The position numbers were made by a program, and so were the translations under genes. A DNA stretch of 46,678 nucleotides from Microcaldota archaeon (lineage in GTDB: Archaea; Micrarchaeota; Micrarchaeia; Norongarragalinales; Norongarragalinaceae). Location: contig JACRGH010000008.1 in NCBI GenBank assembly GCA_016212375.1, forward strand, positions 1 to 46,678. Reading direction: 5' to 3'. Shown piece by piece: positions 16,373-31,619 of this stretch (the first letter of the stretch is position 1; each line of letters starts with the position of its first letter). A model generated the notes under the pieces. That model was not told the DNA's origin and searched no databases. It saw only the letters and a list, made by a program, of their open reading frames with translations.

Positions 16373-16422
16373 TTCTTTTCCCTCTGAAACGATTTGGGCG
16401 CAAAGGCTGTAATAAACCTTGG

Positions 16423-16769
16423 GTGGATTTTTATTCCACTCGGGACCGCGGGGAACCGTCGGTTCCCCCCAGTCCTACGTTACCCCGCCCCCCTCCCTTT
16501 TTGAGTTCGTGCTCGAATTTGAGGGGAGGGTCCGGAAGACAGCACAATTTCTCCGGGAAATTGTGTGGCCCACACAAATCCCGTAGGATTTGTGATGACC
16601 ATGAACTTGGGGAGACGACGCAAATCCGTGCGAGATTTGCGAATCTTGCAAACCGAGGAGGTTTGCAAGGCCACACAAACTCGCAAAGTTTGTGATGGGC
16701 CACAATTCCCACTAGGAATTGTGTGCGGACGCTTCCCCTCCGCGGTTCTGGGGTGGATTTTTTTTCCAC
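16423..16769. repeat. hairpin array element flanked by 17-bp direct repeats
   Basis: Six consecutive perfect stems at 16543-16565, 16573-16594, 16619-16641, 16645-16669, 16674-16694 and 16701-16723; a further hairpin at 16450-16468; flanks GTGGATTTTTATTCCAC (16423-16439) and GTGGATTTTTTTTCCAC (16753-16769). Confidence 0.85.
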
Positions 16770-16787
16770 TTTCAAATTTGCTCAAAC

Positions 16788-29197: not shown

Positions 29198-29302
29198 CGC
29201 CGAGGAGGAGATTCGAACTCCTGAGCCCGTGAGGGCACTGGTTTTCTTCGGCCTTATGTTAGCCGTTCAAGACCAGCGCGATAACCACTCTGCCACCTCG
29301 GC
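29198..29302 (-). tRNA. tRNA-Ser(TGA) with a 22-nt intron at 37/38 (intron 29244-29265)
   Basis: Acceptor GCCGAGG/CCTCGGC + G73; anticodon stem CTGGT/ACCAG with loop CTTGAA^A; long variable arm GCCCTCACGGGC; T-arm AGGAG TTCGAAT CTCCT; no encoded CCA. Confidence 0.92.
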
Positions 29303-31523: not shown

Positions 31524-31619
31524 CGGTGGACCTTTTTTCTACCCAAGGCTTAAAACACGTTCCGGGCTCACGTTTGAAGAAACAAAACGTCGCAATCCAA
31601 GATGAAAAGTCATAAATAG

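Follow-up and report, generated by a model that had tools for sequence, protein, structure and literature searches.

Short, protein-less DNA elements that form hairpins are known from mitochondria, where RHE and DHE are dispersed, scattered and structurally divergent (PMC2800124). Also in mitochondria, the gene hybrids of Allomyces and Glomus have a foreign C-terminus that replaces the native one, which stays downstream; in these hybrids the DNA has diverged, the protein is nearly identical, and a homing endonuclease ORF is carried (PMC3630166). The attC sites of integrons have conserved AAC and GTT feet, an interrupted stem and a tip that may be anything between a small loop and a branched structure (PMC2727003), and integrons occur in archaea (PMC9668308). 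Among the open-licence literature, we found no paper on intergenic hairpin repeats of Micrarchaeota. Here we describe a six-hairpin array from a Microcaldota archaeon, which is one enlarged copy of a dispersed element and not a single-locus RNA. The most probable reading is that the array belongs, in enlarged form, to a family of short mobile DNA elements of DPANN archaea that carry no protein gene, are recognised by their fold and are mobilised in trans; the family appears to be mobile hairpin DNA of a kind not yet described, and not one RNA gene. The archaeal elements resemble RHE and DHE in being short, protein-less, dispersed, hairpin-forming, scattered and structurally divergent; unlike them, they reside in archaeal chromosomes, come with duplicated gene ends, and possess a fixed 57-nt core as well as an exact right end.

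The window, as we call the whole stretch analysed, comprises 46,678 nucleotides (contig JACRGH010000008.1 of assembly GCA_016212375.1, positions 1 to 46,678, forward strand). The original prediction described six consecutive perfect hairpins at 16521-16740, closed by an outer stem. All six stems are perfect and lie where they had been placed: the hairpins, with stems of 8-10 bp, fit within 181 bp, and in 1000 dinucleotide shuffles of the 220 bp of the array there was never more than one hairpin passing the same scan (perfect stem of at least 8 bp, loop of 3-8). No separate 220-bp stretch of the window matched the count of six in this stem scan. The outer arms are also present (GAGGGGA at 16521-16527 and TCCCCTC at 16734-16740), and folding on both strands, which had been proposed as a check, gave an array far more stable than shuffled sequence (z -7.2 on the plus strand and -7.6 on the minus strand, with 0 of 200 shuffles as low). 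The limits first given were too narrow, since the right end falls near 16750, another element, in reverse orientation, occupies 16440-16492, and the two together are bracketed by a direct repeat of 20 bp. Differences among the six stems had been taken as co-variation; the hairpins are separate modules of one array, and their differences are hence no covariation. Compensated stem differences emerge when the same slot is compared across copies at different loci.

The array-bearing element (16521-16750, plus strand) shares its ends with copies at four other places (C73, C30, C23 and C36). It consists of a 5' G-run, the hairpins of slot A, a middle motif CATGAACTTGGGG, the hairpins of slot B and the 3' end CTTCCCCTCCGCGGTTCTG. 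The G-run (G1, GAGGGGAGGG, 16521-16530) could pair with 16734-16740. Slot A (16543-16594) holds two hairpins, at 16543-16565 (stem/loop 9/5) and 16573-16594 (9/4), and the same slot carries other stems at L009, L012 and L077. The middle motif (CATGAACTTGGGGAG, 16600-16614) has NTGAAACTGAAGGGG as its counterpart in relatives, where the homologous pairs covary, and its CCA.GAAC is able to pair with GTTC.TGG of the 3' end. Slot B (16619-16723) holds four hairpins, at 16619-16641 (8/7), 16645-16669 (10/5), 16674-16694 (8/5) and 16701-16723 (9/5), and has homologues with compensated stems at L010, L011 and L014. The 3' end occupies 16732-16750, its right boundary being set by analogy with relatives. 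All these parts are read on the plus strand. The reversed neighbour at 16440-16492 (minus strand) is a minimal element of the same family, recovered by our covariance model R1 (35.8 bits, E ~1e-6), and its right end adjoins the left direct repeat. Such head-to-head pairs, seen in the window and at L227, could mimic terminal inverted repeats.

Two copies of the direct repeat, both on the plus strand, were located by repeat search and by pattern: the left one, GGGTGGATTTTTATTCCACT, is palindromic (16421-16440, pattern match 16423-16439), and the right one, GGGTGGATTTTTTTTCCACT, lies at 16751-16770 and begins 3 nt past GCGGTT. The repeat may be a target duplication or a motif already present in the genome. 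As the palindrome it contains, GTGGA-N7-TCCAC, is also found alone elsewhere in the genome, target duplication at this copy is suggested rather than established. The motif adjoins the right end of the copies at L009 and L012, with no left copy seen at either. Five matches with at most one mismatch occur in the window (1.4 expected), and the pattern sites include 16423-16439, 16753-16769 and 31526-31542, the last immediately upstream of a start codon. Lone copies also occur at L018, L019, L020 and L029, and the palindrome is possibly an operator or promoter motif. Regarding the neighbouring genes, a beta-propeller gene (PF09826) and a DUF5678 gene (PF18929) do flank the array as originally described, whereas the label of retropepsin given to a further ORF has no backing from any Pfam family; an IIDTGS motif is visible by eye in that ORF. 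No clean empty site for the window copy was found among the propeller orthologues of G001 and G002, which have other neighbours (synteny is broken downstream).

When the region was searched against its own 1.34-Mb genome, smaller copies appeared at the four places named above and elsewhere, and a composite query of the shared ends gave 22 BLAST matches, several of them full copies whose ends are shared and whose hairpins differ. The ends common to the copies are GAGGGGGAATCCGGAGGAC and GGACGCTTCCCCCTGCGGTTC; the hairpins between them differ, and are absent in some. The general plan is a G-run (G1), AATCNGGA, slot A, NNTNAAACTGAA, a second G-run (G2), slot B or a loop, a C-run and TGCGGTTNNG. 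The two slots in the core hold from zero to several perfect hairpins, both being filled in the window copy. Copies within the genus carry compensated stems in the same slot (CGCAAATC/GATTTGCG, CGCAAAGC/GCTTTGCG and CGCAAGTC/GACTTGCG), which could stem from selection on the fold or from correction of palindromes by template switching; in other lineages the slot hairpins have quite different sequence. The array copy, with its long slots, is not among the matches of model R1, and its membership in the family therefore rests on BLAST matches to the shared ends (76% and 88%). In the loci and stretches around matches that we read, the inserts in pairs of up to 420 bp were hairpins and not cargo genes; a few pairs, at five loci, were longer. 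Hairpin modules of the CACAA/TTGTG type also occur in arrays with different ends (L026, L027 and L007; C64 and C55 of G000), and modules thus seem to move between element types.

The right end of the element is a conserved 57-nt core that forms a hairpin, its 3' foot being the exact element boundary. Our search pattern fixed AACTGAAGGGG and CCCCTGCGGTT, so that conservation at these positions is partly ascertainment; the flanking pairs lie outside the pattern. The foot pair next to the right end is C-G in 31, G-C in 22, U-A in 7 and A-U in 1 of 67 distinct rows; 99.1% of cells pair, and the covariation score of 0.100 was reached by none of 500 shuffles, slid controls giving at most 0.032. The lengths of the G1, G2 and C runs are matched in relatives (correlations 0.88 to 0.97), although the C-run can pair with just one G-run at a time. 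The minimal cores that were folded proved no more stable than shuffles (z -0.6 and -0.7); copies with slot hairpins did (z -3.6 and -5.5). The original prediction had named copies and compensatory changes in relatives as a check, and both were found. The core resembles attC as defined in PMC2727003 in that its AAC and GTT feet pair, its stem is interrupted and its terminal structure varies; AAC and GTT are invariant in alignment A1, both being part of the search pattern. Unlike in attC, the right box does not follow the R box GTTRRRY and is mostly GTTCGG, GTTCCG or GTTTGG. When the window and six relative loci were searched with Rfam, tRNAs alone scored above family gathering cut-offs, including an intron-containing tRNA at 29198-29302 of the window (minus strand) that ARAGORN missed in bacterial mode; introns are common among the tRNAs of this genome. 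Kink-turns, hammerheads and other ribozyme cores were dropped as candidates after inspection by eye.

A DNA search with a 65-nt core query matched 17 genomes, that of the window included, out of 59 in the same class. Among 85,462 bacterial and archaeal species, a collection from which the genome of the window may itself be missing, the exact core pattern identified 105 stretches. Their record titles are all archaeal, with none bacterial, and nearly all DPANN: Micrarchaeota are the most frequent, followed by Aenigmatarchaeota, and the remainder are one Altiarchaeales, one Iainarchaeum, one Woesearchaeota, one Euryarchaeota bin and unclassified or DPANN-group archaea. Within the phylum, R1 (built from 38 cores) had matches in 56 of 295 genomes, which belong to 34 of 125 genera, with up to 18 copies per genome; in G008, three near-identical copies stand at unrelated loci. 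Spanning DPANN phyla, the family would enlarge a little-known archaeal mobilome by one family of elements.

The surroundings of the copies also point to mobility. Of 101 copies in relatives, 30 have a direct repeat common to both flanks that scores above the 99th percentile obtained with mismatched flank pairs (about 1 expected); some 70% of copies lack a significant repeat. The right boundary is exact, since 27 of these 30 repeats begin within 7 nt past GCGGTT, mostly at 2-4; the spacer on the left may have any length between 0 and about 100 nt. At two loci (L133 and L113), repeat and element form tandem units. The elements are small, non-autonomous, palindromic and mostly intergenic, like MITEs, REP/RAYT elements and derivatives of IS200/IS605. 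Unlike MITEs, they show neither terminal inverted repeats (the left GGGGGAATC differs from the right CCCCCTGCGGTTCGG in 83 cores) nor short target duplications of fixed length, the repeats measuring about 13-73 nt. Such a spread of repeat lengths is too wide for a classic transposase.

Many copies lie at the end of a tRNA or protein gene and are followed by a repeat of about 15-70 bp of that gene end, so that the gene stays intact; the family would lodge in the ends of essential genes without breaking them. In the genome of the window, 10 of 26 tRNA loci have a duplicated tRNA 3' or 5' end 75-261 nt away, as do 9 of 30 tRNA loci of the congeners G001 and G002 (scores of 12-28, compared to a maximum of 11 in the reversed-flank control), and further cases were seen by eye at L003, L004, L021 and L022. 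The elements at tRNA ends belong to several classes, including one of T-rich hairpins and one with ends GGGGTCGAGGC and GGGGCGACCGTT. Orthologous sites, filled in one case and empty in another, can be compared directly: L041 has a 23-bp repeat and an insert while L223 has neither, and the tRNA site L201 is filled while the repeat is missing at orthologous L200 and L037. Of the natures originally suggested for the array, a cruciform mobile or recombination element is supported by these empty and filled tRNA sites, as it is by the dispersed copies, the exact right end and the flanking direct repeats. A 5' leader is unsupported as the nature of the family, because copies occur on either strand relative to their neighbours and lie for the most part at the 3' end of genes, with some at the 5' end. 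The annotation of tRNAs can be misled by duplicated tRNA ends. At L048 (C45 of G000), a degenerate copy of a tRNA 3' end lies 261 nt downstream of the tRNA with a small ORF (MKLPKIDLKELDRVQKEN...) between, and at L103 (JAKAME010000005) and L127 (CAIXYX010000030) an element seems, by eye, to sit within the tRNA gene, with the anticodon region on one side and the 3' half on the other, as an intron would.

At protein genes, the gene is completed by the left copy of the repeat, and that same C-terminus with its stop is encoded once more in the right copy. In ten such cases, codon differences between the copies were 20 synonymous and 2 nonsynonymous (neutral expectation 77% nonsynonymous; p 2e-11), in a test somewhat biased towards conservation since the in-frame alignments were hand-picked from loci with a detected repeat and detectability favours similar sequence. 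The stop codons differ in six cases, yet remain stops. As the differences are nearly exclusively synonymous, both copies look like recently functional gene ends, which is hard to explain by a freely drifting displaced copy and fits two gene ends of different lineages brought together; such pairs naturally preserve traces of recombination across lineages. The arrangement is that of the Allomyces and Glomus hybrids, but in elements without a protein gene. The coding cases (8 proximal and 14 distal changes, hand count) did not establish that identity changes with distance from the right end.

We propose that a trans-acting enzyme would recognise the folded strand, probably as single-stranded DNA, and would join the right end of the element to a target located within the end of a gene. 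A gene end from a related lineage would arrive with the incoming molecule, replace the native end and displace it to the far side, while the hairpin modules would be tolerated as variable structure at the tip of the fold. Larger elements that integrate at the 3' ends of tRNAs and other genes likewise import sequence that restores the gene end and have imperfect flanking repeats; unlike them, the unit here is about 60-350 bp, has no integrase, takes a different target for each copy and also uses 5' ends. A cassette-like version of this proposal seems somewhat improbable to us: the folded single-strand core would offer a tyrosine recombinase an attC-like site, and what moves would be a tiny circle of hairpin plus gene end, which would integrate into the homologous gene ends of other lineages and carry gene ends, not genes, as cargo. 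The excised circle would join GCGGTTCGG to the duplicated gene end. As in integron cassettes, the elements often follow a gene stop, and tyrosine recombinase chemistry is a candidate; unlike in integrons, no attI or IntI was identified, the integrase search having covered the general PF00589 family, and the targets are scattered gene ends.

The synonymous-only repeats, which imply recombination between lineages, would also agree with passive spread, whereby ordinary insertions or tandem duplications are passed by homologous recombination from strain to strain and hairpins are kept perfect by template switching during replication, without dedicated machinery. Template switching can create compensated changes without selection on the fold, and the tandem units at L133 and L113 are as expected. 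We nevertheless hold passive spread to be unlikely, since it leaves unexplained the same exact right end at many unrelated targets, the near-identical copies at unrelated loci and the conservation of the core across several DPANN phyla. It is slightly more doubtful still that the family is a structured non-coding RNA or 3'UTR element, its fold kept for a function in the transcript and its copies spread by duplication. The compensatory changes in the core, slot hairpins that change in sequence, the strong folding energy and the conservation of the core in several DPANN phyla are all compatible with such an RNA, but a recombinase reading a folded DNA strand would conserve the fold too, and the flanking direct repeats with their fixed right boundary, presence and absence at orthologous tRNAs, the patchy distribution (56 of 295) and both orientations relative to genes argue against it.

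For the mobile DNA element that we favour, the conserved fold and exact end offer a concrete substrate for enzyme discovery. Four protein families were tried as mobilisers in the 59 genomes of the class (22 element-bearing, 37 other), and reverse transcriptase and Y1 transposase showed no association with the element there, and TnpB no clear one. TnpB, whose presence in carriers would be expected of an omega-RNA, is found in 11 of 22 carriers and 16 of 37 others, and absent from G001, G002 and G010. RVT_1 reverse transcriptases (PF00078) occur in 1 of 22 carriers and 3 of 37 others, with none in G000, G001, G002, G008, G010, G025, G033 and G057. This makes very unlikely a retroelement, in which an RNA with a fixed 3' end would insert by target-primed reverse transcription and leave target duplications of variable length, as SINEs do; the exact right end, variable left part and variable repeat length would suit it, but the synonymous-only pattern is unexpected from simple target duplication followed by drift. 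Most improbable is that a Y1 HUH transposase moves the elements, as members of the IS200/IS605 or REP/RAYT type, despite the subterminal hairpins, the lack of terminal inverted repeats and a left part common to the G008 copies that appears IS605-like by eye, given that Y1_Tnp (PF01797), unlike in those elements, is missing from most carriers (6 of 22, compared to 6 of 37 others, p 0.33; none in the genus of the window, with G000, G001 and G002, nor in G008, G010, G025, G033 and G057) and that, to our knowledge, known members make no target duplication.

For a DNA element mobilised in trans, a tyrosine recombinase is the leading candidate. Its genes (PF00589) track the element weakly, in 16 of 22 carriers and 12 of 37 others (p 0.0035, a value that ignores phylogeny and the four families tried, in metagenome-assembled genomes of varying completeness), and are absent from some rich carriers (G009, G010 and G025). 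No mobilising gene was seen inside or adjoining any copy, and no clear core near tyrosine recombinase genes in 20 regions. Many tyrosine recombinases of Micrarchaeota (~400 aa; L270-L289) end in a zinc ribbon of the CxxCG type.
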